Shown here: piece by piece, positions 237 through 51,118 of the stretch
How positions within the stretch are numbered: the first letter of the stretch is position 1
Layout of the letters: each line of letters opens with the position of its first letter
Source of the DNA: Oscillospiraceae bacterium
Lineage (GTDB): Bacteria; Bacillota; Clostridia; Oscillospirales; QAMX01
Direction: 5' to 3'
Assembly (NCBI GenBank): GCA_015067705.1
Contig: SVLW01000007.1
Coordinates: forward strand, 1-64,000
DNA length: 64,000 bases
Position numbers and translations under genes: made by a program
The notes under the pieces: model-generated
What the model was told of the DNA's origin: nothing
The model's input: the letters and a program-made list of their open reading frames with translations, nothing else
Databases searched by the model: none

Positions 237-983
237 ATGGAAAACATTGTATTACATACGAAAGACCTGACTAAGACCTATCAGTACACGACTGCGCTTG
301 ACCATGTGAATCTGACGCTTTATCGCGGACACATTTATGGCTTTATCGGTAACAACGGCGCCGGTAAGACTACACTTATGCGTGCGATTATGGGCCTGAC
401 TTTCCCGGATTCTGGCGTGCTTTCGCTCTTTGGTGAAACAGGAATACGGAATCTGGAACGCAACCGCAGCCGCATCGGTGCTCTGATCGAACAGGCGGTT
501 GGGTATGACTACATGACTGCACGTCAGAACATGATCTATCGTCGCATGATCAGTAAGTCGAAAGGCGTGCACGACATTGACGGCCTACTGGATCGACTTT
601 CTATCCACCCAAGAGATGTGGGCAAAAAGACCCTCAAGAATTACTCTGTCGGTATGCGCCAGCGCTATGGCGTGGCGGCGGCTCTTTTGGGGGAACCGGA
701 GTTTCTGGTGCTGGACGAGCCCACCTCCGGTCTCGATCCTGCTGGCACCCGTGATCTGCGAGAGCTCTTTTTGGAGCTGAACCAGCGTCACGGCACTACC
801 ATGCTGATTTCCAGCCACATTCTGGGCGAGCTCTACCAGATTGCCACGGATTTCATTTTCATCAACCGCGGCAAGATCATGTGTGAGATGACCCATGAGG
901 AATTGGAGGCTGCGTGCAAGGGGTATCTTTCCATTGACGATTTCTTCCTGGATCTGGTTGCCCGGGAGGAGGGGAGAAAGTGA
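237..983 (+). CDS. ABC transporter ATP-binding protein
   Basis: Walker A GNNGAGKTT, signature YSVGMRQR, Walker B FLVLDEPT; ATG 237 preceded by gaaaggagc. Confidence 0.93.
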   Translation: MENIVLHTKDLTKTYQYTTALDHVNLTLYRGHIYGFIGNNGAGKTTLMRAIMGLTFPDSGVLSLFGETGIRNLERNRSRIGALIEQAVGYDYMTARQNMIYRRMISKSKGVHDIDGLLDRLSIHPRDVGKKTLKNYSVGMRQRYGVAAALLGEPEFLVLDEPTSGLDPAGTRDLRELFLELNQRHGTTMLISSHILGELYQIATDFIFINRGKIMCEMTHEELEAACKGYLSIDDFFLDLVAREEGRK

Positions 984-1786
984 AGCGGCTTTTTCAGGCG
1001 GAGTGCTATAAGATTCTGAAGAACTGGCTGCTGCTGGGTATGCTGCTGGTGCTCACCGGCTTTTGTGTTTATATCTCTGGCTTACGTACGGGAGGTTTCA
1101 CGCCGAACACTTACGATTCGGTGGAAACGCTCAACCAAGTGTTTGGCAAAGACCTGCGCACGCTACCGGCCCTGTATGACTGGCAGAACAAATATGAAGT
1201 GCGCCTGATTTTCACGGAAATGCTTGTCCCGATCTGGACCGGGCCTATCCTGGCGGCCTTCATCGTCGGACAGGACTTCGCGAATCGCAGTATCACGCTG
1301 CCGCTCCTGATGGGCTATACCCGCACCCGTACTTATTTGGGGAAGGCGCTCTTTTATTTCCTCGCTGGTTTGGCATTATCCCATGTTGCGCTCTATCTGA
1401 CGCTGTTTCTGAATCGTCCCGATTGGATGCAGACGATGAATGCCGCGGTGTATCTTCGCCTCATCCTGTTCCGCACACTGGCCGACCTGGCAACGCTGAG
1501 CATTCCCTGGCTTGCGGCGTTCCTCTTTCGGGATCTGATCAAGACCATGGCGGTGTCTGGCGGATATGCGGCGCTTCTGACTTTTTTGAATGCTTCTGCC
1601 GCGGATAATCCGAATTTTCTGATTCGCATGATCGGCCATCATCCCGCATTTTCCATCCGCGAGATGTGTATCCGCTACATTCCTTTCCCAAGCGATTCCA
1701 TGGAGATGCTTTTGATCGCGCTTTCCATGATCGCCCTGTCAAGCGCGGTGAGTTATCTGATCTTCTGCAAAAGCGAAATGAAATAG
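980..1786 (+). CDS. ABC-2 type transporter permease
   Basis: Hydrophobic multi-TM protein overlapping the stop of the ATPase gene. Confidence 0.8.
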   Translation: MKRLFQAECYKILKNWLLLGMLLVLTGFCVYISGLRTGGFTPNTYDSVETLNQVFGKDLRTLPALYDWQNKYEVRLIFTEMLVPIWTGPILAAFIVGQDFANRSITLPLLMGYTRTRTYLGKALFYFLAGLALSHVALYLTLFLNRPDWMQTMNAAVYLRLILFRTLADLATLSIPWLAAFLFRDLIKTMAVSGGYAALLTFLNASAADNPNFLIRMIGHHPAFSIREMCIRYIPFPSDSMEMLLIALSMIALSSAVSYLIFCKSEMK

Positions 1787-1810
1787 TTCCAATTGAAAGG
1801 AGGCAACCCT

Positions 1811-2677
1811 ATGTGGCAGCTATTCCGCAGTGAATGCTATCAAATACTGCGCAATAAGAGTTTCTATGCATCGATTCTGATCTCCGGCATCGTGTTTTAT
1901 TTGTTCTATAATTCCGACTTGAATATGCGCACAATTGCAGAGCTCCGAGATGTGACGGGAGAGAGTTGGAATTTGGATATGATAAGAAATGTCAGCTTTC
2001 CCGTGTTGCGCCATCAGTTTGGCATAACAGAAGAATCTTTTACCGGACTGGACGATATGATGTCGATATATTTCAAGTATGTCATTTCCTTCCGATTTCT
2101 GGACCCCAATGCCTGTGTGATTACTTCCGCATATTTGTCCACGGTCTTGCTGGGTACTTCGTTTGAACACCGTACGATTGATCTCGGCATCATGCAGGGA
2201 TATTCCCGCAGACAGATTTTTGGGGCAAAAGCGATTCTCTATTATTTGATTGCGCTTTGCAATACGCTGTTCTGGTTTTTTGTGCTTCATATGTACACCT
2301 TTGGCGTCCAGGGGACAGCCATGCTTCCACGTGAGCTGATTTTCAAATGCTATTTGGTGGTCGCATATAATGTTTTGGTCGTATACACCGTTCCTTTCCT
2401 TCTTACCATGTTGACCCGGAATATTCTGAAGAGTGCTCTATTGAATTTCGCGTTCCTCTTTTTGGCGGTGGTAGTCAGCAATCTGCTCCCTCCCGCCGTA
2501 TACACCATCGTTTTCCCATTCCTATCCTATGGACATTTTCTCAGATCGTTTGCTTTCCCGGAGTTCTATCCAATCGATCCCATGAGGACAGTCCAATATC
2601 TGTCTCTGTCCCTGGGATATTTGATCGGCTTCAACTGGCTTGCATACCGCGTGTTCCATAAGGCAGAGTTGAAGTGA
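1811..2677 (+). CDS. ABC-2 type transporter permease (second subunit)
   Basis: Multi-TM; N-term MWQLFRSECYQILRNKSFY resembles the preceding permease; RBS aaaggaggc. Confidence 0.78.
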   Translation: MWQLFRSECYQILRNKSFYASILISGIVFYLFYNSDLNMRTIAELRDVTGESWNLDMIRNVSFPVLRHQFGITEESFTGLDDMMSIYFKYVISFRFLDPNACVITSAYLSTVLLGTSFEHRTIDLGIMQGYSRRQIFGAKAILYYLIALCNTLFWFFVLHMYTFGVQGTAMLPRELIFKCYLVVAYNVLVVYTVPFLLTMLTRNILKSALLNFAFLFLAVVVSNLLPPAVYTIVFPFLSYGHFLRSFAFPEFYPIDPMRTVQYLSLSLGYLIGFNWLAYRVFHKAELK

Positions 2678-2701
2678 CTCATTTGAATCGTATATGCTCA
2701 A

Positions 2702-2733
2702 TCCCGGAGTTTATCTCCGGGATATTTCTTTAT
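2702..2733 (+). terminator. Rho-independent terminator
   Basis: tcccggagtttatctccgggatatttcttt. Confidence 0.7.
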
Positions 2734-2754
2734 AGATATTGCATAAAACCTTCA

Positions 2755-2770
2755 TTATACTTTTGTATAA
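2755..2770. promoter_or_regulatory. Candidate BlaI/MecI-type operator
   Basis: Perfect inverted repeat ttatac-tttt-gtataa upstream of the blaI-like gene; tttgtataa recurs near 2827. Confidence 0.45.
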
Positions 2771-2843
2771 CGACACGATTGTCTTTCATTCATTTCTATG
2801 TTATCATAAAACCATCAAATAACACGTTTGTATAATTGATGAT

Positions 2844-3254
2844 TTGGAGGTGATATCTATGCCTTTTAAGCAGAAACGTCTTGGCGATGCGGAGCTTGAG
2901 ATCATGCAGATCATTTGGACGACGGAGGAGCCGGTGTCTGCCTCCTGGATCCACGAGCGACTGCTTGCATCTCGCAGTTGGCCGCTGCCCTCTGTCATGA
3001 CGTCTCTGACTCGCCTTGTGGAGAAGGGATATGTGCGCTGTGACAAGGCGGGGCGCTCCAATCTTTACTCCGCCTTGATTTCGGAAGCGGCCTATCGCCA
3101 GACGGAGGGATCGAGCTTCCTCTCCCGGGTCTTCGGCAATTCCCTCCCGAACTTCGTGGCCAGTCTTTATGACGCCCACGCGCTGACACAGGAGGATATT
3201 GACGAGCTTCGGGCCTACCTGGATGAATTGGAGGCGAAGTCCCGTGACGATTGA
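2844..3254 (+). CDS. BlaI/MecI/CopY family transcriptional regulator
   Basis: Winged-helix LGDAELEIMQIIWTTEEPVSASWI...PSVMTSLTRLVEKGYV; true start may be ATG 2859. Confidence 0.9.
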   Translation: MEVISMPFKQKRLGDAELEIMQIIWTTEEPVSASWIHERLLASRSWPLPSVMTSLTRLVEKGYVRCDKAGRSNLYSALISEAAYRQTEGSSFLSRVFGNSLPNFVASLYDAHALTQEDIDELRAYLDELEAKSRDD

Positions 3255-4863
3255 GCGTATGTTTGCAGAGATCCTCTTGCTTTCCTTGGGCACTTCCGGG
3301 CTGTTTTTCCTGCTTCGTCCGGTGATGCGCCGTCTTTCGGTTCGCCCCGCCTCCCGGATGGCGGTGTGGTGGCTTTTGACGGTGCGGCTGCTCCTGCCGG
3401 TTCCGATTCGACTCCCCGGACTGCGGGATCGGGTGTCCATCCCGGATCTTCCCCTCCCGGGACTTGCTTCCTCGCCCGTCGAATCTCATCCCGTTGCTTC
3501 GCAGACGGCCATGGATGCCGCGCTGAACCTGACGGCGTCGCCGACGCTTTCTTTGCTGGAAGTGTTGGGCCTCATTTGGATTGCTGGCGTGACGTTGACG
3601 CTGATCTATCTGGCCTCCGCATATATCTTCCAACGTCGCCGTCTACTGCGGCACAGCATCCCCGCATCGGAATCCGTCGCTACGATTCTTGCCGAGCTCT
3701 GCGAAGAACTGCATCTTCACCGCATGCTTCCCGTTCGGGTTTCCGCCGCCGCGCCTATGCCGCTGCTGATAGGCTTCCTGCGCCCCTGCATTCTGCTGCC
3801 GCATGAGGATGATTCACCCATGGTACTTCGCCTGATCCTTCGGCACGAGCTGACCCACTTCCGCCGCCGGGATCTCTGGATTAAACTGGCGCTGCTCCTC
3901 TCCCGCGCGCTCCATTGGTTCAATCCGGTGCTCTTCCTATTGTCCCGGGAGATCGCAGATGACATGGAGCTTGCCTGCGATGCCGCGGTGCTGCAGGGAC
4001 GGGATGCAGACTATGCCCGCGCCTATTCCCACGCGATTCTGTCCGCCATCCAACCTGTGTCGGCCCGGCTCTCCGGTCTGACCACCGGTTTTCATGGAGG
4101 TGCAAATACTATGAAAAAACGCCTTACTGCTATCCGTACCGATTCCCCCATGCGGCGGGGCCGCATGATGGTCGCGCTCGCCGCGGCTCTGCTTCTGTTG
4201 GTCGGCGTTTTGGCCGGCTGCGTGGGAGATGCATTCCCCACGGAACAGAACGGTCTCTATGATTTTGGCTCGATATCCGATCTCTTCCGGGTTCGGGGAC
4301 AGGACGTGCGCGTCCGCTATTTCCCGGAGAGCATGACCATTGACGACTTTCTGACTAATTTTGACCTGACCGCCGAAGAAGCCAATCCCCAGCACGGTAC
4401 CGACTTCCCCATCCAGTCCTATCGTGTCATGGATGCCATCCTCTTTGACGAGACCGGAGACCTGCCCTGGCATCTCAGTGTGAACACATTGGAGGACGGT
4501 CGCCTGCGGAATTTGTCTCTCACCGGTTCCTTCTGGGGCGTCCCTTATGAGGATGCTATGGCACAGGCGGAGATCATTCTTGCCAAAATCGAGGATGCCT
4601 GCGGCAAGGGAATCACCTATGAAGAATGGATGGAGTCCGGCGGCGACAATCGCATGGTGATCCATCCTTACGGCGATCCTTTCGACAGTCTTGAGGAACT
4701 GGGAACCTTTTATACCTGTGAATACCTGTTCTTGAAAACGGGTGACTTCGTCGATGTTTCCGTCAGCCACCGCGCAGTGGAATACGATACCACAGAACGG
4801 CTCGGTGTAGCCTACGACAGCTTGTTTGAGGTTACCATTGGCGTCGTTATCAACAGAGAATGA
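3244..4863 (+). CDS. M56 family (BlaR1/MecR1-like) membrane metallopeptidase
   Basis: HELTHFRRRD zinc motif and EIADDMELACDAAVL; GTG 3244 overlaps the blaI-like stop. Confidence 0.88.
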   Translation: MTIERMFAEILLLSLGTSGLFFLLRPVMRRLSVRPASRMAVWWLLTVRLLLPVPIRLPGLRDRVSIPDLPLPGLASSPVESHPVASQTAMDAALNLTASPTLSLLEVLGLIWIAGVTLTLIYLASAYIFQRRRLLRHSIPASESVATILAELCEELHLHRMLPVRVSAAAPMPLLIGFLRPCILLPHEDDSPMVLRLILRHELTHFRRRDLWIKLALLLSRALHWFNPVLFLLSREIADDMELACDAAVLQGRDADYARAYSHAILSAIQPVSARLSGLTTGFHGGANTMKKRLTAIRTDSPMRRGRMMVALAAALLLLVGVLAGCVGDAFPTEQNGLYDFGSISDLFRVRGQDVRVRYFPESMTIDDFLTNFDLTAEEANPQHGTDFPIQSYRVMDAILFDETGDLPWHLSVNTLEDGRLRNLSLTGSFWGVPYEDAMAQAEIILAKIEDACGKGITYEEWMESGGDNRMVIHPYGDPFDSLEELGTFYTCEYLFLKTGDFVDVSVSHRAVEYDTTERLGVAYDSLFEVTIGVVINRE

Positions 4864-5170: not shown

Positions 5171-5210
5171 CGCCCCGCAGAGCTTTACTCTCTGCGGGGT
5201 ATTTTTTATA
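5171..5210. terminator. Bidirectional rho-independent terminator
   Basis: cccc gcagag ctttact ctctgc gggg tattttttat. Confidence 0.85.
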
Positions 5211-5577
5211 AAATGTTCCCCAGCCGGAAGGCCTCCGACCGGGTGATGTGCTCAAGCTGCACTTGGATGAGCCGGTGCGCCGCCAGAAAATCGTCGTCAT
5301 CGTCGCAGAGAGCGGCACTATAAAGGTTTGAGAGCGTAGCGCTGGCCTCCTCCAGATCATTGTGCACGCAGACGCTTTCCAGATACCAGTGCTGCCCCTC
5401 CCAATATGCCTCCATCCGGGTAAGGGTGCGAAGCACTTCCTCCCGGCTTGCCGCCGTCCCGGCCGCGTCCAGATAGTCCTGCATGGTCTCCGTGATCTCT
5501 GCCATATAAAGACTGCTCCACACCGTCACCCCGGCGATCAGCACCAGGATCCCCAAAGATCCCCAGATATAGCGCAT
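5206..5577 (-). CDS. DUF4363-like small membrane-anchored protein
   Basis: N-terminal TM then helical WxxxxHWYLESVCVHNDLEEA; adjacent to DUF421 gene as commonly seen. Confidence 0.7.
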   Translation of the reverse strand: MRYIWGSLGILVLIAGVTVWSSLYMAEITETMQDYLDAAGTAASREEVLRTLTRMEAYWEGQHWYLESVCVHNDLEEASATLSNLYSAALCDDDDDFLAAHRLIQVQLEHITRSEAFRLGNIL

Positions 5578-5580
5578 CCG

Positions 5581-6288
5581 TCATCCCTCCTTCACGCCGG
5601 AGTCCGCGGGAAACTGCGTCCGCGGCACGATCAGGGTCTTGCCCAGATCGTCCAGCACCATGAGAAACACGTCATGGGGCGAGCGCAGTCCCTCCCGGGC
5701 GATCTGCCGCAGCAGCCACGCCCTGTCATGCCCACAGGCCGCCAGATTCACGTCCAGCACCCGCCCCTGGGCAATGAGGGTCATATAAAGCTCCGGCTCG
5801 CTTCGCGTGTCGATCTGCATCTGCCCCGCCGTCACCGGCCGCTCTGCCGCCCGCAGTTGGATACTCAGTGCGCCGTTGGTCTCTAAATACGCCGAGCCCA
5901 CCTGAGAGGGATCGAACACGTCCTTCAGGCGCAGTTCCTCCAAAAGTTCCGTGATGTTGATGCGCTGGCGCTTTAATTCCCGCTGGTTGATGACGCCGTT
6001 TTTGATCAGCACGCTGGTGCGCCCGCAGAAAAATGCGCGAAACCGCGCAGACCGGGCCGACAGAGCTGATACCAGCACTTCCAGGGAAAAAAGCGTCAGA
6101 ATGGGCACCACGCCCTGCACCAGCGGGATCCCCAGATCCTGCATCGGCACCGCCGCCAGATCGGAAATCAGGATGGAGGTCACCAGTTCCGCCGGCTGCA
6201 GCTCGCCCAACTGCCGCTTCCCCATGATGCGAAGGCTCAGAATAATCAAAAAATAGAGTATCAAGGTGCGGATGAGGCTTGTGGCCAT
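5581..6288 (-). CDS. DUF421 (YetF-like) membrane protein
   Basis: LRIMGKRQLGELQPAELVTSILISDLAA motif. Confidence 0.9.
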   Translation of the reverse strand: MATSLIRTLILYFLIILSLRIMGKRQLGELQPAELVTSILISDLAAVPMQDLGIPLVQGVVPILTLFSLEVLVSALSARSARFRAFFCGRTSVLIKNGVINQRELKRQRINITELLEELRLKDVFDPSQVGSAYLETNGALSIQLRAAERPVTAGQMQIDTRSEPELYMTLIAQGRVLDVNLAACGHDRAWLLRQIAREGLRSPHDVFLMVLDDLGKTLIVPRTQFPADSGVKEG

Positions 6289-6334: not shown

Positions 6335-7474
6335 TTACTTTTCCATGCGGCGCACGGCCTCAATGGTGCGGGTCAGACGCACCGCCGCGCCACGCAGCAT
6401 CTCGTGAGATCGCGCCATGGATTCCTCCGTGGTGATGGGGCACACAATGGTGCTCAGCGCGGCAGTCACGCCGCAGTCATACACCGCGTCATAATCCCGG
6501 CCCAGCGTGCCGGAAATGATGAAGCCGGGCTTTCCGTACTTGGCGCCGCGCTTGCACACGCCCACCGGCGCCTTGCCATAGGCTGTCTGGTAATCCGTGG
6601 CGCCCTCGCCGGAGATCACGATGTCCGCCGCCTCCGCCAGGCGGTCAAAGCCGATGGCGTCCAGCACCAGATCGATGCCCTGCTCCAGCTGCCCGCCGCA
6701 GAATGCCATGAATCCCATGGAGAGTCCGCCCGCTGCGCCGGCGCCCGGCACATTCGCATAATCCGCGCCGATGGTATCGGCCAGAATCGCGGCATAATGG
6801 GCGAGATTCCGGTCCAGAATCGCCACATCCTCGGGGCTTGCGCCCTTCTGCGGCCCAAAAATCGCCGCGGAGCCATGTGCGCCGCAGAGGGGATTATCCA
6901 CATCACAGGCAATGCGGAAGCTGCAGTCTTTCAGACGGGGATCAAGCCCGGCAAGGTCGATGGCCGTCAGCTTCCCAAGTCCGCCGCCGCCGGGAGGAAG
7001 CTCCTCCCCGGCCGCATCCAGGAACCGCACGCCCAGGGCGCGGGCCATGCCGCTGCCGCCGTCGGTGGTGGCGCTGCCGCCCAGACCCACAATAAACTCC
7101 CGGCAGCCCCGGTCAAGGGCCGCCCGCACCAGTTCACCGGTGCCGAAAGTGGTGGCGGCCTTTGCGTCCCGCAGTTCCGGTTCGATCAGAGGCAGGCCGG
7201 ACGCCGCCGCCATTTCAATGACGGCCACTTTCCCGGCTACGCCGAAGCGGGCCCGGATGGGTCGCCCGATGGCGTCCGTCACCGGTACTTCCACGATTTC
7301 GCCGCCCAGTCCCGCCACAATGGCGTCCACGGTGCCCTCGCCGCCGTCGGCAATGGGCACCACCTGCACTTCGGCGTCCTGCGCCACGGAGAGGATCCCC
7401 TCCCGCACAATGGCGCCGGCCTCCTGAGAGGTGAGATTCCCCTTAAAGGAATCCATTGCAACCAAATATTTCAT
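6335..7474 (-). CDS. Glycerate kinase (GarK/GlxK family)
   Basis: MKYLVAMDSFKGNLTSQEAGAIVREGI... VPIADGGEGTVDA... GLGGSATTDGGSGMA. Confidence 0.95.
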   Translation of the reverse strand: MKYLVAMDSFKGNLTSQEAGAIVREGILSVAQDAEVQVVPIADGGEGTVDAIVAGLGGEIVEVPVTDAIGRPIRARFGVAGKVAVIEMAAASGLPLIEPELRDAKAATTFGTGELVRAALDRGCREFIVGLGGSATTDGGSGMARALGVRFLDAAGEELPPGGGGLGKLTAIDLAGLDPRLKDCSFRIACDVDNPLCGAHGSAAIFGPQKGASPEDVAILDRNLAHYAAILADTIGADYANVPGAGAAGGLSMGFMAFCGGQLEQGIDLVLDAIGFDRLAEAADIVISGEGATDYQTAYGKAPVGVCKRGAKYGKPGFIISGTLGRDYDAVYDCGVTAALSTIVCPITTEESMARSHEMLRGAAVRLTRTIEAVRRMEK

Positions 7475-7489
7475 AAAAAGTCCTCTCAA

Positions 7490-9634
7490 TCAGTGAGTGT
7501 CCAGATCAAGCGCCCAGGGATGGCTCTCGAATCCGCCCTCGGAAAGCGGCGAGGGATTCTCGGCCAGCTCCCGCAGAGTCTTCATCCGCATGGCCAGGGT
7601 CACGTCCCGGCGCACTTCGTCGGTATAATAGGAATAGCCAAAGGTCTGGTTCACGCGGGCCATCTGATAGGGCATATAATGCGCCGCCCAGACTTCCGCC
7701 AGCCGCTGCCAGGGCTTCACAGCCTCGCTGAGCTCACGGACGGCCAGTTCCTTCTGCTCCTCATCGCCGGAAAGCTGGAAAACCGCAAGCTGCAGCGCTG
7801 CACGGATCTTCTTCTCATAATAAGCGGACAGCAGGCACCATGCCCGGATATCCTCCAGACAGCAGGCCAGGTCGCCGCCCCGGTATTCCGGCTCAATGGC
7901 CTGATCCAGTGCTTCCGCCACCTCGGCAAGTTCTCTGGCATTATGCCCCACGATTTCGATCACCCGGCGGGCATCCTCGGCCTCGTTCTCCTCGCCCCGC
8001 AGGATCCTCTTTGCGGTATCCATCACGCCGATGGTGCCGGAGCCCGGCATGGCAGGCGTGTCAATAAAGTGCTGAACCGTGTGGAAGCCAAAGGTGGTCA
8101 TACAGCTCTCGGGATGCCACTGGAAATCATAGTCCACCCAGTGAAGTCTCGTGACGGCGCAGATCGTCCGCACGCCCAGCTCCAGTCCGCGCAGCACCAG
8201 ATCCCCGCACACCGCGCCATACCGGCGGAGGCAAACCCGCAGGAAGTGCTCCCGGGGCAGCTCGGGATTGTAGCCCAGTCGGCCAAGGGTGGCAAACTGC
8301 AGGAAATGACGCTCGAAGTCATATTTCCATTCCATGTGCTTATGGGGAACATGCTGGAAATCCCCGGCCCAGACATAGCCGTCCGCGCCCCAATAGAAGC
8401 CCGCCACATAGGATTTCTTCATGCCGCGGATGTACTCCGCGATAAACTCCGGATCACAGCCCCGGAGCGTCTGGAAGTCGTCGTTTCGCACGGTGTAAAT
8501 CACGCGGGACTCTTCTACGTTCATGTCCTTCCATGCACCCCAAAGCTCCTCAAACTGAGGCCGGGGATGGGAATACATATGGGCATTGGAATACTTCCAG
8601 GAGATGAGCTTGTCTTTGCCCGGATATTTTTCGATAAACATCCGCTTGGCCACCTGGCCGTTTGACATATTGGTGCGGTGGATGAAGGGCAGGGGCACAT
8701 TCAGCTCCTGAATGGCTTTTAAGTAGGTATCCGCCACCCATTCCTCCGTCTCCGCGCTGTTGCCGATCAGTTCCTCGCTGTTGGAGGTGCCAAGACCGGT
8801 GAGATTCGGATAGGTGCGGATCAGGGTCTTGATGGCCTCCCGGAAATAATCCCGGATCAGGGGCTCCTGCTGACGCAGGCCCTGACGGAAGCGGTTGGAG
8901 TTGGGGATGGCCGTCTGCTCCGGCAGACCCAGACCCCGGGCAATGGCCGGCGTGATCCGCAGATTCCAGGTGATGAGATAAGTGGCGATGCCGCGGTTTT
9001 TCGCATGGGTGAAGATGAAGTCGAAGACCGTGCGGAAGCGCTCCAACTCCACATCGGAATAGGGCGTGGCCTCCGGGTATTTCGGCACCCGGAACATCAT
9101 CTCAAAGGGATTCATTGACCAGATGGAGAGGAGATTATAGCGATTCTCCGCCAAAAAATCGATATAGTCCCGCCAGAATTCGATATCCAGAACGGTTTTT
9201 TCGTTTTTCTCAAAGGGGTCGCCCTCGCCGAAGGGCTCATAGGGCCAGTTGAACTTGATGCCGCGCTTTTCAAGGAAAGGCGTGCCGTCCCGATCGGTGA
9301 TGGCGTCATAGCCCTCCAGGTCGATGATCTCGGCAAGCTCCAGAAGGCCGTACATGGCGCCGACGCGGTCGGAGGCATTCAAGTAAATTGCCTGATCCCG
9401 CACGCGGATCTGATAGGATTCGCCCGGCAGCGTGGAGGCGGCGCGGAAGCCCGCAAAAGTGAGCACCAATGCCCGCACGCTCTCGTCGCCCACAAATTCG
9501 TCCCGGCGCAGGATCGTGCTGCGGATGCCCGCCCGATCCAGTGCCGCCCGGAATTTCCGCATTCCGAAATGGATGGGATCGTCCGGTGCCGGCCCTTTTT
9601 CAAAGTGACGCAGTCTGTCCCAATAGATCAGCAT
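7490..9634 (-). CDS. Glycoside hydrolase-like protein with GH20b/GH67N-like N-terminal domain (family uncertain)
   Basis: ESYQIRV...AIYLNASDRVGAMYGLLELAEII followed by a TIM-barrel-like region EKRGIKFNWPYEPF. Confidence 0.75.
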   Translation of the reverse strand: MLIYWDRLRHFEKGPAPDDPIHFGMRKFRAALDRAGIRSTILRRDEFVGDESVRALVLTFAGFRAASTLPGESYQIRVRDQAIYLNASDRVGAMYGLLELAEIIDLEGYDAITDRDGTPFLEKRGIKFNWPYEPFGEGDPFEKNEKTVLDIEFWRDYIDFLAENRYNLLSIWSMNPFEMMFRVPKYPEATPYSDVELERFRTVFDFIFTHAKNRGIATYLITWNLRITPAIARGLGLPEQTAIPNSNRFRQGLRQQEPLIRDYFREAIKTLIRTYPNLTGLGTSNSEELIGNSAETEEWVADTYLKAIQELNVPLPFIHRTNMSNGQVAKRMFIEKYPGKDKLISWKYSNAHMYSHPRPQFEELWGAWKDMNVEESRVIYTVRNDDFQTLRGCDPEFIAEYIRGMKKSYVAGFYWGADGYVWAGDFQHVPHKHMEWKYDFERHFLQFATLGRLGYNPELPREHFLRVCLRRYGAVCGDLVLRGLELGVRTICAVTRLHWVDYDFQWHPESCMTTFGFHTVQHFIDTPAMPGSGTIGVMDTAKRILRGEENEAEDARRVIEIVGHNARELAEVAEALDQAIEPEYRGGDLACCLEDIRAWCLLSAYYEKKIRAALQLAVFQLSGDEEQKELAVRELSEAVKPWQRLAEVWAAHYMPYQMARVNQTFGYSYYTDEVRRDVTLAMRMKTLRELAENPSPLSEGGFESHPWALDLDTH

Positions 9635-9645
9635 AGTCGTCCTCC

Positions 9646-11649
9646 TTAATAATCAATCACCACAGACTCAAAGAGTCCTACCTGCGGCACCGTAATAGTG
9701 ATGCGGCTGCCGTCAAATTCATAGGCAAGGTCTTCTCCGGTCACCATGCTGTATACCCGCACCGGCGGCTTCGGAATGGCCATGTTGCAGGTGACGTCCG
9801 TGGGAATGGGCTCGAAGAAAGAGTTGCCGAAGTGGCCGCTGCTATTCACCAGGCTCAAAAGCTCCGTCTTGATGTCCGGCGTGATCATCACCGCCACCTC
9901 GATCATGGGGCTGAAGTCGCCCTTCACCCGGCGGGCAGAGGCATAGCGCTCCAGAATGCCGTTCATGAACTTGAAGGAATTGGAGTATCCCTGCCGGTAG
10001 TAGAACTCACCGGCGTACCACGGCACATAGATGGCAGTTCCCTTTGCGGTATAGCCCGGCAGATCCGTGACTTGGGTGTAATAACAGCGCTCCGGCGGGC
10101 CGAAGTGAGAAGGCGGAATGAAGGAAAGATGCCGCTCCACCGCGTCCTCATACTCCTGATAGAGATAGGTGCCGTCCAGGGCAATCAGTTTCTCATCCGC
10201 GGCAAAGCCGGGCATGGGATCGTCAGAGGAAATCTTGAAGTAAGAGCCCCGGGCGTCGTCCCGCACCTGCAGGGTGCGGCGAATGCCAAGGCAGGGGAGG
10301 GCGGGAACCGTGCGGCGCTCATAATGCTCGTCGTACATGCCGGTCTCGCCGGTGGCGATGAGGGTGCCGCCCCGGGCCACAAAGTCCTCGATGAGGGCGG
10401 CGCGGGAATCGGACATATACCGATCATCCGGCAGGATCATGGTGGTATACCGGGCAAGGCCCACCGCCTCCATGCGGGAGGCATAGATCACGTCAAAGGG
10501 GAAATGCCCCTCCGTCAGTGCCCGATACCAGCCCCGGTATTCCGGCGTGGTGTGGCCGTTATGGGATTCCGGACAAATGAGCGCCACCTTGGAACAGGGC
10601 ACCACACCGTCCAGAAGCTTTTCATTCTTCTTGTGGAACTGGAACAGTTCCTGCACCCGCTTCTGGGCGCTCTTGTCCTCGGCGTTGTCAAGACGGCCGA
10701 TGAGGTAATAGTCCGGGCTGCCGCCATTGGCAAAGCCCTGCACCAGTCTAAGCGCGTGCTGTGCCGGGGAGACGGACACCAGACGAATGGGGAAGTCGAT
10801 GAAGTCCACGTCGCAGTTGGACTGGCGATAGCCGGGATAGCTCACCCGCACCGCCTTGGACTGTTCAGAACCGATATACTGCCAGTGGGGCAGACCGCGA
10901 TCCAGCGCGGTGGAGTCCTCTTCCCGCATATAGGCGCTGTCGATGGTATAGGTGTCCCGATGGATCAGAATGTCCGGGCGGATGGCGCGGATCATCTCGC
11001 ACACCCGTCTGCCGTGCTCGGCCTCGGTCTCCTTCTTGAATTCCAGATAACGGCGGTATGCCGGGTCCGCCATATCTTCCTTTTTCGGCAGTTCCATACC
11101 ATAGCGCTCCCGGAACATTCGCTTACAGTTTTCACAGTGGCAGATGCCGTGATAGACGCCGGAATAATCTCTGGTCTGATAGCCCGCCATATTGAAGTAG
11201 ATGCCGTCCACCGGCAGCTCCGTCAGAGTCTCCCGCAGGATCTCCAGCATATACTCCCGCTGGAAGCCGCCGTTGATGCAGGCGTGCACATCGCCGTTAT
11301 AATCGACGATCTCGCCGTCCACGGTGCGGTATGCCCACTCGGGATGCTGTTCGTACACTTCCCGGCGGATTTTCGAGAAGTCCGTGCGGGCGATGACCCG
11401 GATGCCCTCCCGATGACAGGCCTCGATCATATCGCGGACGCTGTCGGCCTTGAGATAGGGGCTCTGCGGATGATATTTCAGCTTGGTCGGATAGCTCGCC
11501 AGGATGCCGGAGGTGTTGATCATGGTGATCTTGGCGTCGAACTTTTTCAGTTCCGCCACATAAGTCTCCGCATCCATGTCCAGCATATCGATCTGGCGCA
11601 GATTGGTCTGGATATAGCGCCAGGGAATGTCTTGCCACCAGTATTTCAT
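9646..11649 (-). CDS. Hypothetical glycosyl hydrolase (GHL6-like) with beta-galactosidase trimerisation-like domain
   Basis: GIRVIARTDFSKI...EHPEWAYRTVDGEIVDYNG...NPDGIYFN-type barrel; C-terminal Rossmann-like ARYTTMILPDDRYMSDSRAALIEDFVARGGTLIATGETG. Confidence 0.72.
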   Translation of the reverse strand: MKYWWQDIPWRYIQTNLRQIDMLDMDAETYVAELKKFDAKITMINTSGILASYPTKLKYHPQSPYLKADSVRDMIEACHREGIRVIARTDFSKIRREVYEQHPEWAYRTVDGEIVDYNGDVHACINGGFQREYMLEILRETLTELPVDGIYFNMAGYQTRDYSGVYHGICHCENCKRMFRERYGMELPKKEDMADPAYRRYLEFKKETEAEHGRRVCEMIRAIRPDILIHRDTYTIDSAYMREEDSTALDRGLPHWQYIGSEQSKAVRVSYPGYRQSNCDVDFIDFPIRLVSVSPAQHALRLVQGFANGGSPDYYLIGRLDNAEDKSAQKRVQELFQFHKKNEKLLDGVVPCSKVALICPESHNGHTTPEYRGWYRALTEGHFPFDVIYASRMEAVGLARYTTMILPDDRYMSDSRAALIEDFVARGGTLIATGETGMYDEHYERRTVPALPCLGIRRTLQVRDDARGSYFKISSDDPMPGFAADEKLIALDGTYLYQEYEDAVERHLSFIPPSHFGPPERCYYTQVTDLPGYTAKGTAIYVPWYAGEFYYRQGYSNSFKFMNGILERYASARRVKGDFSPMIEVAVMITPDIKTELLSLVNSSGHFGNSFFEPIPTDVTCNMAIPKPPVRVYSMVTGEDLAYEFDGSRITITVPQVGLFESVVIDY

Positions 11650-11768: not shown

Positions 11769-12215
11769 TCAGGTATTGATCGTGAAAAGCTGATCCGTGG
11801 TGCCGTAAATCGTGGGGAACTCCCCGATTTTCTGGAACCCGTATTTTTCATAAAGTCCCTGCTCGCCGCTCATGAGATACACTTTCGGGAAGGTGCGCTC
11901 ACGGGCATAGGCCAGCACGCAGCGGATCAAAAACTGCGACAGCCGCTGTCCGCGGAATTTCTCATCGATAAAGACAAATCCGATGAACGGCGCATAGTCA
12001 TAACCCTCTATCAGCTCGTCTTTCTCGAAAAGTGTGCAGTATCCCGCCACTTCGCCGCCATCCAGCAGAATGAATACGCGCTCCCAGGGCAGGAATTCGC
12101 CCTGCCGCATGCGCTTTGCCAGCACAGGGCCGGCCTTCCACGAACAGGCGTCGGCATATGTGATCAATTTTTCCCAGTGCTCATGACCGGGGGTCATGGG
12201 ATATACTTCCAGCAT
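11769..12215 (-). CDS. GNAT family N-acetyltransferase
   Basis: PFIGFVFIDEKFRGQRLSQFLIRCVLAYAR...VYLMSGEQGLYEKYGFQKIG. Confidence 0.85.
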   Translation of the reverse strand: MLEVYPMTPGHEHWEKLITYADACSWKAGPVLAKRMRQGEFLPWERVFILLDGGEVAGYCTLFEKDELIEGYDYAPFIGFVFIDEKFRGQRLSQFLIRCVLAYARERTFPKVYLMSGEQGLYEKYGFQKIGEFPTIYGTTDQLFTINT

Positions 12216-12230
12216 AGGAACCCGACTCCT

Positions 12231-14222
12231 TTAGATCGTGAAACGCAGTGCGCCGGACTTCTTTAAGTACACCGGGCAGCGCTCCAGCGGGGCATCCGCC
12301 AGAATGGTCTGGCCGCCGGCATATTCCTCGCCGGTGTGGGCGTCGATCCAGGTCTCGCCCGCCGGGAGATAGACCTCACGCTGCCGCTGACCCAGCTCGA
12401 ACACCGGGCAGACCAGCACGTCGTCGCCGTACATCATCTGGTCCTCTACGCCGATGGTCTTGGCATCGCACGGGAAATCGTAGTAAAGCGGACGGATGAC
12501 CGGGGCGCCGGTCTCGGCGGTTTTCTTCATAGTGGCGGCGGTGTAGGGACGCATCTCCTCACGCAGGAAGAGGTACTTCTTCAGGATCTCGTACACTTCC
12601 TCGCCATAGCTCCAGACTTCGTTGGGGCCGCCGGTGTGGGCCTTGGAGGTGATGCCGGAGGGCTTGCCGTTCTTGCGGTCGCCGTGGAGACGGAACACCG
12701 GGCAGAACAGACCGAACTGGAACCAACGCACCAGAAGCTCCCGGAAAGCGGGATCATTCTGGTCGCCGCCGTCAAAGCCGCCGATGTCGGAGGTCCACCA
12801 CGGAATACCGGACATGGCCATGGAAAGGCCGGAGGTGAACTGCTCACGGAAGGAGCGGAAGGTGGTGTCCGTGTCGCCGGACCAGACCAGAGCGCCGTAG
12901 CGCTGGCTGCCTGCCCAGGCACAGCGCAGCAGGTTTAAGGGATTCTCCATGCCCTCTGCCTGCATGCCCTCATAGAAGGTCTGGGCATAGACCAGCGGGA
13001 AGATGTTGCCCACTGCCAGGTCGGAACCCATGGCATAACGATAGTTATCAAAGTCATAGACCGCATACTCCGGCTCGGCCTCATCCAGCCAGAAGATCTG
13101 GATTCCCTTGTCGAAGTAGTTCTTCTTGATGATGCTCCACACATACTTGCGGGCCTCGGGATTGGTGGGGTCAAAGGGCACGGTCTCGCCGCAGAAGGTC
13201 ATGGCGATACGCACGCCGCGCTCGGTGCGGATCAGATAACCGTTTTCCAGCATCTCCCGATAGTTCTCGCTGCGGGTGTCCACATAGGGCCATACGGAGA
13301 CCATGAGCTTGATGCCCATTTCCTCCAGTTCTTTCACCATGGCGTCGGGATCCGGCCACTCGCTCTCGTCAAAGCGCCAGTCGCCCTGCATGGGCCAGTG
13401 GAAGAAATCGGACACGATGACGTCCATGGGCAGGCCCAGGGACTTGTGCTTGCGGGCAACTTCCATCAGCTCGTCCTGGGTCTGATAGCGCAGCTTGCAC
13501 TGCCAATAGCCCATGCCGTAATCCGGCATCATGGGTGCATGGCCGGTGGCGTCGGCGTAGGCAGACATGATATCGGCGGGGGTGTCGCCCACGGTGATCC
13601 AATAGTCCAGGGTCTTGGTGCTGGATGCCACCCATTCGGTGATGTTGCGGGAGAAGGTCACGCGGCCGATGGAGGGATTATTCCAGAGGAAGCCATAGCC
13701 GTTGGTGGAAATATAGAAGGGGACGGAAGCCTGAGAATTGCGGTGGGCAAGCTCCAAGGTGCAGCCCATCTTGTCAATGAGACCGTCCTGATACTGACCC
13801 ATACCGAAGATATGCTCGTCGGGATTGGGCTCAAAGCGCATATGCAGCTCATAGTCGCCGCCGCGATGGGGCACAAAGTCACGGCCCTTGATCTCCAGGG
13901 CGCTGATGGTCTCAAAGCCCTTGGTGCGGGTGCGCCAGCGTTCCTTTAAGAGCAGCTTGCCGTCTGCATCCTCCAGCGTGATGAGGCCGACTTTGGAGAC
14001 CTTGGCCACGATCTTGCCGTTGCGGATCCGGGCGCCGTTTTCGCCGATCTCGATCTCGGTTTCCACCGCGGGAACGGGCAGCAGTGCCCAGTCATCGGCG
14101 GGCATCTCCAGCATATGCGTGGCACGCACGCGGAAGCTGTTCTTCCCCCAGGGCTCGATCCAGACCTGTTCCGTATCGTTACGAATCATCAGACGATTGC
14201 CGTCTTTTTTCAGAATAGCCAT
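12231..14222 (-). CDS. GH31 family alpha-xylosidase/alpha-glucosidase
   Basis: MGYWQCKLRYQTQDEL, IFWLDEAEPEY, WTSDIGGFDGGDQNDPAFRELLVRWFQFGLFCPVFRLHG. Confidence 0.93.
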   Translation of the reverse strand: MAILKKDGNRLMIRNDTEQVWIEPWGKNSFRVRATHMLEMPADDWALLPVPAVETEIEIGENGARIRNGKIVAKVSKVGLITLEDADGKLLLKERWRTRTKGFETISALEIKGRDFVPHRGGDYELHMRFEPNPDEHIFGMGQYQDGLIDKMGCTLELAHRNSQASVPFYISTNGYGFLWNNPSIGRVTFSRNITEWVASSTKTLDYWITVGDTPADIMSAYADATGHAPMMPDYGMGYWQCKLRYQTQDELMEVARKHKSLGLPMDVIVSDFFHWPMQGDWRFDESEWPDPDAMVKELEEMGIKLMVSVWPYVDTRSENYREMLENGYLIRTERGVRIAMTFCGETVPFDPTNPEARKYVWSIIKKNYFDKGIQIFWLDEAEPEYAVYDFDNYRYAMGSDLAVGNIFPLVYAQTFYEGMQAEGMENPLNLLRCAWAGSQRYGALVWSGDTDTTFRSFREQFTSGLSMAMSGIPWWTSDIGGFDGGDQNDPAFRELLVRWFQFGLFCPVFRLHGDRKNGKPSGITSKAHTGGPNEVWSYGEEVYEILKKYLFLREEMRPYTAATMKKTAETGAPVIRPLYYDFPCDAKTIGVEDQMMYGDDVLVCPVFELGQRQREVYLPAGETWIDAHTGEEYAGGQTILADAPLERCPVYLKKSGALRFTI

Positions 14223-22686: not shown

Positions 22687-25125
22687 ATGAGTAAGATCAC
22701 TGTCAAAACCAGCGAAAAACGTTTCCCCATCGCACCGGATCTTTATGGTATCTTCTTCGAGGATATCAGCCACGCCGGTGACGGCGGTATTTATCCCGAA
22801 ATGCTCCGCAACCGTTCCTTCGAGGACTCTCTCCTGCCGGAAGGCTGCGTCACGAATGACGGCGGCAAGACCTTTGTTTCTCCCACCGGCTGGATCGATG
22901 AGTTCAACGGCGGCGAGGGCATGAATAACTGGGTGGAGAAGAACCAGATCGTTCCCACGCCCGTTCCTGCCTGGTACACCGAAAACGCCGAGATGACGCT
23001 CGATGCCGAGAACACCTTAAACGCCAAGCGTAAGGTCTCCCTGAAGGTGGACTTCCAGCCCGGCGGCCGCATCCGCAACATCGGCTATGCAGGTGTGCCC
23101 CAGCACGCCGGCAAGGCCTATCACTTCTATGTTTTCCTGAAAACCGAAAAGCCCGTGACTCTCGATATCACCATTGAGGAAGACGGCGTCGTGCTTTCCT
23201 CCGCGGAGATCGAGGCCAAGGGCAATGGCTGGGTGCGTTATGACTGCTCTTTGGTCGGCACCAAGACCACCGGCAATGCGGCCTTCTACATCACCTGCCG
23301 CGAGGGCGGTACGGTGCGCTTTGGCTTCAGCTCCCTGATGCCTGCCGACACTTTCAATGGCCACGGCCTGCGCCGCGACCTGGTGGAAAAGCTCCGCGAC
23401 ATGAATCCCGCCTTCCTGCGCTTCCCCGGCGGCTGTATCGTAGAGGGCTTCACCAAGGAGACCGCCATGTACTTCCGCAATGTGGTGGGCCCCGTTTGGG
23501 AGCGTCCCAGCCACTGGCTCCTGTGGCACTATCGCGCCACCAATGGTCTGGGCTTCCATGAGTATCTCCAGCTCTGTGAGGACCTGAACCTGTCCCCGCT
23601 TTATGTCTGTAACTGCGGCATGACCTGCCAGGGCCGTGGACCGTACTACTATAACGACGAAGAGCAGGAGGACATGATCCAGGATACCCTGAACGCCATC
23701 GAGTATGCCGTTGGTCCCGCCGATTCCGAGTGGGGCAGCCTGCGCGCCAAGATGGGCCATGAGGCGCCCTTCGGCCTCGAGTATCTGGAGATCGGTAACG
23801 AGAACAGCGGCCCCGAGTACGAGCGTCGGTATAACCTCGTCCGTGACGCCGTTCTTGCCCGTTATCCCAATCTGAAGATCATCGCCAACGACCGCGGCCG
23901 CGACGAAAAGCTCAAGACCGACATCGCTGACGACCATTACTACAACATGCCGGAGTTCTTCGCCGAGAACTACGATATGTACAAAGACTATGACCGCAAC
24001 GAGCCCGATATCTTCGTGGGCGAATTCGCCGTCAACCAGACCTATGAGGGCCAGCTCCGCGCCGCCATCTCCGAGGCCATGTACATGGTGGGTATGGAGC
24101 GCAATCAGGACGTGGTGAAGCTTGCCTCCTATGCACCGCTTTTCGAGCATGTGAACTTCTCCTCCTGGTACCCGAACCTGCTCATTTACGATAACTATAG
24201 AAGCTACACCATCCCCACTTACTACGCATGGCGTCTCTTCGGCGGCAGCCGCGGTAAGGACGTGGTGGAATCCTCTGAGGAATTCCGGAAGATTTATCTG
24301 AAGCTGGCCGGTCTGCCCGCCATCACCGGCGACTACGGTATGCGTTACCGCGGCGCCAAGTGGAACGGCGAGGCCGTCGCCGCCACCCATGAGGTCTTCG
24401 GCAAGCTGGTGGCCGAGGGCGAGGATCTGGTGCTCACCGAAGTGCCGCCCAAGCGCGTCCGTCCCTTCAAGCTCCCGTCTCTGGTCGCCATGGGCGAGGA
24501 TGTGGAAGCCAAGGCTGGTACCTTTGAGGTGGAAGTGCTGGCAGACGGCGGCCGCGAAGTGGGCGTCGGCATCCTGTGCGCACCCAAGCCTCTGAGCTTC
24601 TATGACCGCAACAACCCCAACCCCGTGGATCCGTGGGAGATGCGCTTCCTCGAGATGTTCCGCTGGGTCATCCGTGATGGCAAGTCCTGTGTCCTCCGCG
24701 GCATGCGCGGTACCGCCATCAGCGAGGAAAAGGAAGTAAAGCTCCTGGACGGCCAGTACAACAAGCTGTCCTACATCGTCAAGCAGCCCTATGTGGAGCT
24801 TTACCTGAACGGCGAGCTCATCGACACCGTGGAACTGCCTCACTATCAGTCCATGTGCTCCGTGGTCACCGATACCGAGGATGAGATCATCATCAAGGCT
24901 GTCAACTTCGACGACGTGGCTGACGACATCGAGATCACTCTGGACTGCGACGTGGCGTCCGAGTATACCGTGGGTCTCCTCACCGGCAATGCCGAAGATG
25001 AGAACACCATCGAGAACCCGGACAACGTCCATGACGTCCTGCTCAATAAGACCGGCGCCGCCCGTACCTTCACTTACACCGCACCGGCCCTCTCCGTGAA
25101 TATCCTGACCCTCAAGAAGGCATAA
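22687..25125 (+). CDS. Alpha-L-arabinofuranosidase, GH51, with carbohydrate-binding-like N-terminal insertion
   Basis: GIFFEDISHAGDGGIYPEMLRNRSFED; PAFLRFPGGCIVEG; EIGNENSG; EFAVN. Confidence 0.94.
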   Translation: MSKITVKTSEKRFPIAPDLYGIFFEDISHAGDGGIYPEMLRNRSFEDSLLPEGCVTNDGGKTFVSPTGWIDEFNGGEGMNNWVEKNQIVPTPVPAWYTENAEMTLDAENTLNAKRKVSLKVDFQPGGRIRNIGYAGVPQHAGKAYHFYVFLKTEKPVTLDITIEEDGVVLSSAEIEAKGNGWVRYDCSLVGTKTTGNAAFYITCREGGTVRFGFSSLMPADTFNGHGLRRDLVEKLRDMNPAFLRFPGGCIVEGFTKETAMYFRNVVGPVWERPSHWLLWHYRATNGLGFHEYLQLCEDLNLSPLYVCNCGMTCQGRGPYYYNDEEQEDMIQDTLNAIEYAVGPADSEWGSLRAKMGHEAPFGLEYLEIGNENSGPEYERRYNLVRDAVLARYPNLKIIANDRGRDEKLKTDIADDHYYNMPEFFAENYDMYKDYDRNEPDIFVGEFAVNQTYEGQLRAAISEAMYMVGMERNQDVVKLASYAPLFEHVNFSSWYPNLLIYDNYRSYTIPTYYAWRLFGGSRGKDVVESSEEFRKIYLKLAGLPAITGDYGMRYRGAKWNGEAVAATHEVFGKLVAEGEDLVLTEVPPKRVRPFKLPSLVAMGEDVEAKAGTFEVEVLADGGREVGVGILCAPKPLSFYDRNNPNPVDPWEMRFLEMFRWVIRDGKSCVLRGMRGTAISEEKEVKLLDGQYNKLSYIVKQPYVELYLNGELIDTVELPHYQSMCSVVTDTEDEIIIKAVNFDDVADDIEITLDCDVASEYTVGLLTGNAEDENTIENPDNVHDVLLNKTGAARTFTYTAPALSVNILTLKKA

Positions 25126-29383: not shown

Positions 29384-29412
29384 AATATACCATAGGACAA
29401 AGGATTTGTCAA
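29384..29412 (-). promoter_or_regulatory. Promoter of perR-like gene
   Basis: TTGACA - 17 nt - TATATT on minus strand. Confidence 0.8.
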
Positions 29413-29435
29413 CACCTTTTTTCAAAAAAGTTTTA

Positions 29436-29464
29436 TTGAATTTTCCGGCGGCACTTGGTATAAT
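29436..29464 (+). promoter_or_regulatory. Promoter of the GT-CsaB fusion gene
   Basis: TTGAAT - 17 nt - TATAAT. Confidence 0.75.
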
Positions 29465-29561
29465 AAACTTGTTATTTTGTGCTCTGATTTTCCCGGAGGT
29501 TCCCGGCTTTTTCGGGGACTTTTCGGTATTTTTGAAACTGATTTCGGAAAGAGGACGCGTT

Positions 29562-47468: not shown

Positions 47469-48323
47469 TCAAAAGGCCGGGGAGTCCCCGGCCTTTTCCT
47501 TACTTTTTTCCAATACATACTTCTCCGGCACGCTGACGCCGAAGGCGCGGCTCACATCCCGCAGACCGTCGCCGGGGATGGTCTGGCGCTTGCCGCCCAT
47601 GGACAGCACCTTCACCAGGATCTCCGCCGCCTTCTCTACGGTGTGCATGAGACCGAAGGTGAGGTCAAAATCCTCGCCGGAGCAGAAGAGCCCGTGGTGG
47701 GCCCAGACCGCCACATCATGCTCCTGCATGAGCTTTGAGGTCTCCACGGCGATTTCGCGGCCGCCCGGAATCATCCACGGCACCACGCCGATGCCCGCCG
47801 GGAAGACAATGGGGCACTCCGTCTCCATCTCAAAAAGCTCCCGGGTGAAGGTCACGTCATCCAGCGGCAGCACAAAGGTCAGTGCCACAATATTGGTGGG
47901 ATGGGCGTGATAGATCACGCGGTGACGGCCGTGTGATGCGGCCTTTTTCACCTCATGGTTCATGAGATGGGTGGGCAGTTCGCTGGTGGGTCTGCCGCCG
48001 TTTACGAGGCCCCACACAATACGGTACTGCGTACCGGTTTCATCGATCTCCACGATCGTGAGGGCATCCTCGGGATCCAGGCTGGCATTCCGGAAAAACT
48101 TGCCGGAACCGGTCACCAGGAAGTATTCGCCGGAAAGGCCCGGCACCTCCGTGCCGATCTCCCGCCATTCGCCTGGATGCAGCGATTCCCGGATCTCCTG
48201 AATTTCTTCTTCCCGGATCCGATAGCTCAGATTGCCGCCGTTTCGCTCGTGCCATCCCTGCTGCCATCCGTCGTCTGCCATCCGGATAAAGCCCTGTACA
48301 AAGGGCGCTTTCAGTACGTTCAT
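47469..48323 (-). CDS. rhaD: Rhamnulose-1-phosphate aldolase
   Basis: GWHERNGGNLSYRI; PTSELPTHLMNHEVKKAASHGRHRVIYHAHPTNIVALTF. Confidence 0.94.
   Translation of the reverse strand: MNVLKAPFVQGFIRMADDGWQQGWHERNGGNLSYRIREEEIQEIRESLHPGEWREIGTEVPGLSGEYFLVTGSGKFFRNASLDPEDALTIVEIDETGTQYRIVWGLVNGGRPTSELPTHLMNHEVKKAASHGRHRVIYHAHPTNIVALTFVLPLDDVTFTRELFEMETECPIVFPAGIGVVPWMIPGGREIAVETSKLMQEHDVAVWAHHGLFCSGEDFDLTFGLMHTVEKAAEILVKVLSMGGKRQTIPGDGLRDVSRAFGVSVPEKYVLEKSKEKAGDSPAF
47471..47498 (-). terminator. Terminator overlapping the 3' end of rhaD
   Basis: aaaaggccggggagtccccggccttttcc. Confidence 0.8.
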
Positions 48324-48337
48324 ACGCTGTGCCTCGT

Positions 48338-51036: not shown

Positions 51037-51118
51037 CGCTTCCTTTCCTGTCAAGTCGGGGGAACTTCGAACACCCTCATGATAACAAAATATCCCCGGA
51101 ATAGCAAGCGGTACGGAT

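Follow-up and report, generated by a model that had tools for sequence, protein, structure and literature searches.

We found that a three-gene operon in the window, by which we mean the whole 64,000-nucleotide stretch of Oscillospiraceae DNA analysed here, encodes two glycosidase-like proteins, P1 (P0001) and P2 (P0002), together with a glycerate kinase. Judged from their sequences, P1 and P2 are distantly related to enzymes that take fucose and galacturonic acid off pectin and other glycans. They are best filed as variants on the plans of GH151 (P1) and GH138 (P2), each failing a catalytic-residue test of its reference family, and both probably belong to uncharacterised enzyme families. Sequence comparisons and the predicted fold of P2 lead us, with moderate confidence, to regard P2 as alpha-uronidase-like and P1 as fucosidase-like and probably inverting.

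Organization and conservation of the operon

The open reading frames of P1, P2 and the glycerate kinase (Table 1) are spaced 11 bp and 15 bp apart. Ribosome-binding (Shine-Dalgarno) sites are present in the operon (...TATTAAGGAGGACGACTATG... and ...TTGAGAGGACTTTTTATG...), and the kinase has an alternative start at a TTG at position 7489. With its own promoter and an upstream terminator, the arrangement bears out the co-transcription of the three genes that had been proposed in an earlier, sequence-only reading of this DNA. The same reading had placed the GH31 gene upstream of the operon behind a terminator. The terminator is real, with the correction that GH31 and the operon are separated by a GNAT gene in the window. 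In the sister species L006 and L007 the GNAT gene was not found at the corresponding place, and GH31 lies directly 5' of the P1 gene; a terminator, followed by a TTGACTTTCC...TGTA(C/A)AAT promoter block, again stands ahead of the operon. The recurrence of the terminator and of the same promoter block in both sister species makes the operon a unit of its own, apart from GH31. L006 and L007 carry, in the stretch from the promoter to the start codon, a palindromic TGTATATACA-like sequence, a possible operator; no such palindrome was seen in the window. Downstream, the transcription unit probably extends beyond the glycerate kinase through the DUF421 and DUF4363 genes to a strong hairpin.

All three genes are intact. 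Among the three species of the genus, dN/dS (where dS could be estimated) was 0.035-0.08 for P1, 0.04-0.09 for P2 and 0.05-0.13 for the kinase, an overall range of about 0.03-0.13. These low values indicate that P1, P2 and the kinase are under purifying selection for function.

Table 1. Positions of the features discussed, in the window and at related loci
Feature	Source	Position	Strand	Basis or remark
Protein 1 (P1), 667 aa	window	9646-11649	minus	ORF; GHL6 TIM barrel and GH42-type middle domain
Protein 2 (P2), 714 aa	window	7490-9634	minus	ORF; GH138-fold relative
Glycerate kinase, 379 aa from ATG	window	6335-7474	minus	ORF; PF02595, 464 bits
Sigma-A-type promoter, TTGACT-17-TACAAT	window	11707-11679	minus	Sequence; kept in L006 and L007
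Intrinsic terminator, 16-pair stem and T-rich tail	window	11762-11728	minus	Isolates operon from upstream GNAT gene
GNAT acetyltransferase	window	11769-12215	minus	Between GH31 and operon
GH31 glycosidase, alpha-xylosidase/alpha-glucosidase type	window	12231-14222	minus	Separate transcription unit
DUF421 (YetF-type) protein	window	5581-6288	minus	Probable read-through part of unit
DUF4363 protein	window	5206-5577	minus	Probable last gene of unit
Strong hairpin	window	5199-5173	minus	Sequence; probable end of unit
Rhamnose cluster: class II aldolase (RhaD-type), RhaA (576 bits), FGGY kinase (RhaB-type)	window	47469-51054	minus	
GH51-type alpha-L-arabinofuranosidase	window	22687-25125	plus	
GT4 glycosyltransferase/polysaccharide pyruvyl transferase fusion, 793 aa	window	29406-31787	plus	Heads a run of further ORFs
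Palindromic sequence	L006	~5940-5975		Possible operator
Palindromic sequence	L007	~5945-5980		Possible operator
Three tandem GHL6 paralogues	L054	7664-13918	minus	
P1 homologue and following genes	L053	6916-12640	plus	
Distant GH138-like protein, 1087 aa	L018	2262-5525	plus	
Run of sugar-acid pathway genes	C26 (L077)	458-4538		

P2 is predicted to have a GH138 fold with different candidate catalytic residues

Pfam gave nothing above threshold for P2, the sub-threshold match being to GH20 domain 2 (17 bits). A phmmer search of P2 against solved structures found the GH138 alpha-galacturonidase BPa0997 (4.5e-16), and a profile built from 16 P2 homologues, mostly from Clostridia and including one Planctomycetota and one Spirochaetales MAG, matched BPa0997 at E=1e-39 over positions 12-648, the whole catalytic part. 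The AlphaFold model of P2 reached a pLDDT of 85.7 and a pTM of 0.89. With this model, the top five Foldseek matches in the PDB were GH138 chains (E down to 1.4e-30, TM up to 0.77); GH84 O-GlcNAcase and GH67 alpha-glucuronidase came next. We therefore rejected an assignment of P2 to GH67 or GH20, and with it the GH67N/GH20b-like label that the sequence-only reading had given it, because the GH20 match is so low and both sequence and fold favour GH138 first. Against the curated NCBIfam alpha-galacturonidase model NF049878, P2 scored 85.5 bits and did not reach the cut-off of 1300.

The catalytic pair of GH138 is presumably E294 and E361, the latter located after strand 6; an E361S mutant of GH138 has been deposited (PDB 6HZG). 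The E361 position is occupied by Ala351 in P2 and by Ala in 16/16 homologues. HMMER and three modes of MAFFT agree in placing E361 and Ala351 in the same column. The P2 loop around Ala351, KYSNAHMYSHP, contains no acidic residue. E294, after strand 4, aligns with E288 of P2, which forms an EE pair with the invariant E287. The invariant residues of P2 are Glu287, Lys347, His352, Arg383, Asp385, Asp386, Asp418 and His428, the acids among them lying after strand 4 (E287), after strand 7 (R383-N384-D385-D386) and after strand 8 (W415-G-A-D418). The loops after strands 4, 6, 7 and 8 rank among the most conserved parts of the protein, and the basic residues R254, K347, R383, R391 and H428 would suit a carboxylate-binding pocket. 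Alignments and model together indicate that P2 represents a GH138-fold family outside GH138 proper, with a different set of candidate catalytic residues.

The P2 family is rare. Sampling of 391 class-level and 399 phylum-level genomes yielded one non-own match in total (L011). Scans of viral contigs for the P1 and P2 families found no relatives.

P1 resembles GH151 fucosidases and carries Asn at the nucleophile position

Pfam identified in P1 a GHL6 domain (115 bits), in agreement with the earlier description of this protein as GHL6-like, and a GH42 trimerisation-type domain. A GH42 beta-galactosidase was considered and rejected, as nothing pointed to it beyond the trimerisation domain and some marginal matches to the barrel. 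The nearest solved relative of P1 is the GH151 alpha-L-fucosidase ALfuk2 (6TVK); the single-sequence match is weak (8.5e-7), and a profile of the P1 clade matched 6TVK at 3.8e-30 in three stretches that cover most of the length. The domain layout of P1, with a GHL6 barrel, a Rossmann/GH42M domain and a C-terminal sheet, matches that of GH151, for which the ALfuk2 layout and the nucleophile, D154, have been described (PMC10154630).

D154 aligns with Asn153 of P1, and Asn is present in 8/8 clade sequences, whereas Asp is retained at this position by most of the other GHL6 proteins in the sample. The sequence-only reading could make out in neither large protein a catalytic signature assignable to a defined GH family, which agrees with the loss of D154 (to Asn) in P1 and of E361 (to Ala) in P2. 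E244 of P1, invariant in five core rows, is a candidate acid; the 6TVK alignment stops short of the region of the general acid/base E235. Cys124, Cys170, Cys172 and Cys175 are invariant. H515 of the window P1 aligns with GH151 His503, a residue of the neighbouring subunit, and is replaced by a residue other than His in L007, L053 and L054. No signal peptide was apparent in P1 on inspection by eye. A structure model of P1 made from three near-identical sequences had a pLDDT of 41 and was too poor to use.

Genomic neighbourhoods of P1 and P2

Three species share the order GH31-P1-P2-glycerate kinase. They belong to a single genus, the only one in which P1 and P2 co-occur, and the DUF421/DUF4363 genes are likewise syntenic in it. 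Neighbourhood conservation, which had been put forward earlier as a check, therefore gives a mixed outcome: the gene order holds within the genus and not beyond it. We fetched 15 further P2 loci from outside the genus, one of them (L009) from the same bacterial family, and counted the 14 that were at least 7 kb long or otherwise informative. P1 and the glycerate kinase occurred in the fetched flanks of 0/14 of these loci, absences that are lower bounds because some flanks are short where contigs end. Parts of a sugar ABC importer were present at seven of the 14 loci, some of the matches being weak, and a GH29 fucosidase at four (L010, L011, L014 and L015); GH42 was found at L011 and L012, and GH2 at L012. 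Sugar-acid dehydratases of the galactonate-dehydratase type scored above the curated cut-off at L010 and L011, and a xylose-isomerase-like protein together with a D-2-hydroxyacid dehydrogenase was encoded at 3/14 loci (L014, L015 and L017). None of these neighbours, the isomerase and dehydrogenase pair included, occurred in 20 control stretches (224 kb), which held a single unrelated glycerate kinase. No importer gene adjoins the operon of the window. We rejected a role of the xylose-isomerase-like gene as hydroxypyruvate isomerase, as it had no NCBIfam match to that function and weak matches to ketogluconate epimerase.

At L054, a large locus, a P1 relative is accompanied by an importer and two more GHL6 genes, as well as by genes for two 2-hydroxyacid dehydrogenases and for the xylose-isomerase-like protein found beside P2. 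Its three tandem GHL6 paralogues, which stand behind the sugar ABC importer, have Asn at the nucleophile position. At L053, the P1 homologue is followed by genes for an alpha/beta hydrolase and for AllG/CoA-ligase-like proteins (oxamate carbamoyltransferase type), an odd context for a glycosidase. At L018, from a Planctomycetota MAG, the P2 homologue overlaps at its end with the gene of a protein distantly similar to GH138; with only 51 bits, this neighbour was rejected as a standard GH138.

Sugar metabolism of the genome and the glycerate kinase

The genome is probably able to use galacturonate and rhamnose. Contig C11 carries a group of UxaC, UxaB-type and UxaA-type genes, which a glucuronyl-esterase-like gene accompanies, and a rhamnose cluster is present in the window. 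The genome also has two fucose-isomerase-type genes and an apiosidase-family (PF13204) protein. The GH31 protein of the window scores highest against an alpha-xylosidase model, yet stays below its cut-off. Elsewhere in the window are an arabinofuranosidase gene and a gene for a glycosyltransferase fusion (Table 1).

The glycerate kinase is well above the curated cut-offs for PF02595 (464 against 23.3 bits) and TIGR00045 (431 against 168 bits), and one copy was found in its own genome. Within the bacterial family, 18 of 21 genomes have a glycerate kinase, in most cases with neither P1 nor P2; full-length P2 was found in only 4/21. The contexts of the kinase differ among eight relatives. Because the kinase is general in the family, its coupling to P1 and P2 is weak evidence for the product of the pathway; its operonic place is a genus-level feature that proves little. 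In one relative (L120) the kinase gene overlaps a gene of the dehydrogenase subfamily seen at the P1 and P2 loci, and an HpcH/HpaI aldolase gene comes after the dehydrogenase gene, a set that recalls sugar-diacid routes. The genome of the window has the isomerase and D-2-hydroxyacid dehydrogenase pair as well, on contig C26. This contig was chosen because it held the best dehydrogenase match, a choice in which the isomerase-like neighbour played no part. The run of genes there encodes permease-like, sugar-acid-dehydratase-like (enolase), xylose-isomerase-like and D-2-hydroxyacid dehydrogenase proteins, as in a sugar-acid pathway. The earlier suggestion that the kinase points to a sugar-acid-derived product is thus weakened by the kinase's wide occurrence, its unrelated contexts and its absence from the fetched flanks of 14 non-genus P2 loci, and gains some support from the sugar-acid dehydratases and the isomerase and dehydrogenase genes at other P1 or P2 loci and from the L120 operon. 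A role for the kinase in a sugar-acid branch is possible.

Discussion

The explanation that we prefer, tentatively and at somewhat less than an even chance, is that P1 and P2 are cytoplasmic exo-enzymes that trim a plant oligosaccharide taken up by the cell, one that is acidic and contains fucose and is perhaps like rhamnogalacturonan-II (RG-II), P2 being alpha-uronidase-like and P1 fucosidase-like. An acidic and probably fucose-containing oligosaccharide would enter the cell, where P1 and P2 would take sugars off its non-reducing ends in the cytoplasm. P2 would be an exo-alpha-uronidase, with galacturonic acid as its most likely substrate; its general acid would be a Glu after barrel strand 4, and its base the Asp pair of strand 7 or the Asp of strand 8, replacing the strand-6 Glu of GH138. 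P1, with its GH151-like barrel, would have as its substrate an alpha-L-fucoside or else a comparable sugar of the 6-deoxy or methylated kind, and because the nucleophile position is Asn we expect an inverting, Asn-assisted mechanism rather than a retaining one. One catalytic acid is replaced with respect to each reference family, which makes the transfer of substrates from GH138 and GH151 uncertain. Freed galacturonate would enter the UxaC-UxaB-UxaA route, for which the genome has the genes, and the glycerate kinase would complete a sugar-acid branch or simply share the promoter. A more far-reaching version, in which two undescribed glycosidase families with rewired active sites (strand-7/8 Asp in P2, Asn for the nucleophile in P1) jointly give Clostridia a cytoplasmic route for a pectin fragment that is acidic and fucosylated, with a sugar-acid branch with glycerate at its end, seems to us rather doubtful.

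A specific form of the preferred explanation concerns chain A of RG-II, which contains 2-O-Me-Xyl-alpha1,3-Fuc-alpha1,4-(GalA-alpha1,2)-Rha (PMC7939467). As these sugars are adjacent, three enzyme types fit neighbouring linkages: GH31 would free alpha-xylose, P1 (or a GH29 elsewhere) alpha-fucose, and P2 alpha-GalA from rhamnose, mirroring the Bacteroides enzyme set in a Clostridia cell. The GH31, fucosidase-like and galacturonidase-like proteins and the sugar genes are compatible with chain A; the synteny of GH31 in three species, its best (sub-cut-off) score against the alpha-xylosidase model, the apiosidase-family protein, the two fucose-isomerase-type genes and the RhaD-RhaA-RhaB-type genes all speak for it. 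We nevertheless consider it unlikely, given that the P2 family lacks the E361 of GH138, that the GH31 gene is transcribed separately and may just as well encode an alpha-glucosidase, and that rhamnose and uronate genes are common among plant-degrading bacteria. We also consider it unlikely that P1 and P2 are not hydrolases and have binding, regulatory, phosphorylase or lyase functions: the changes of D154 to Asn and E361 to Ala, invariant in their clades, would suit such proteins, but the catalytic end of the P2 barrel still has other invariant acids (E287, D385, D386 and D418), the loops after strands 4, 6, 7 and 8 of P2 count among its best conserved parts, and E244 of P1 is invariant in the core rows.

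Two further alternatives turn on the glycerate kinase. There is a real possibility, compatible with the preferred explanation, that the kinase, along with DUF421 and DUF4363, is a bystander that shares the promoter and has no metabolic link to P1 and P2. The distribution of the kinase and of full-length P2 in the bacterial family, the differing contexts among eight relatives and the synteny of DUF421/DUF4363 in the genus fit this well; the isomerase and dehydrogenase pair on contig C26, beside a sugar-acid-dehydratase-like gene, and the overlap of kinase and dehydrogenase genes ahead of an aldolase gene at L120 argue for a link. Conversely, the operon might free glycerate for the kinase from glucosylglycerate, mannosylglycerate or a like compound. 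The direct inclusion of the kinase in the operon, kept in three species, speaks for such a route, but the route is very unlikely: none of the 14 P2 loci fetched from other genera has the kinase, which is general in the family, and the closest relatives of P1 and P2 have fucose and uronic acid, rather than glycerate glycosides, as their targets.

If the preferred explanation holds, two families akin to pectin- and fucose-acting enzymes, with different catalytic residues, would be assayable from one three-gene operon. A fucosidase-like enzyme of the TIM-barrel type in which Asn takes the place of the nucleophile would offer a direct test of a change in glycosidase mechanism, and a catalytic acid relocated within the GH138 fold would offer another. 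Complex pectin degradation has been described so far mostly in Bacteroides, and the operon would hint at how some Clostridia join in it.

Comparison with known glycosidases

P2 shares with GH138 (BPa0997, PDB 6HZE/6HZF/6HZG; BT0997) the layout of N-terminal domain, TIM barrel and helical C-terminal part over ~640 residues. Fold-wide identity is ~16%, and the strand-7 Asp-Asp and strand-8 Asp of P2 are without counterpart in the alignment. GH67 alpha-glucuronidase, among the next-best fold matches, has a similar overall layout, but its Foldseek match to P2 is weaker (E ~1e-15, TM ~0.5) and it gave no sequence match. P1 has in common with GH151 (ALfuk2, 6TVK) the barrel, the GH42-type middle domain and the C-terminal sheet, as well as the CxCxxC loop and the length; it differs in having Asn153 for D154, and His503 is not conserved in the P1 clade. 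For inverting fucosidases of GH95 and GH139, Asn has been proposed as catalytic base (PMC12282258). These enzymes have an (alpha/alpha)6 fold and no homology to P1, and they provide, by analogy only, a precedent for an amide base acting on alpha-fucosides.
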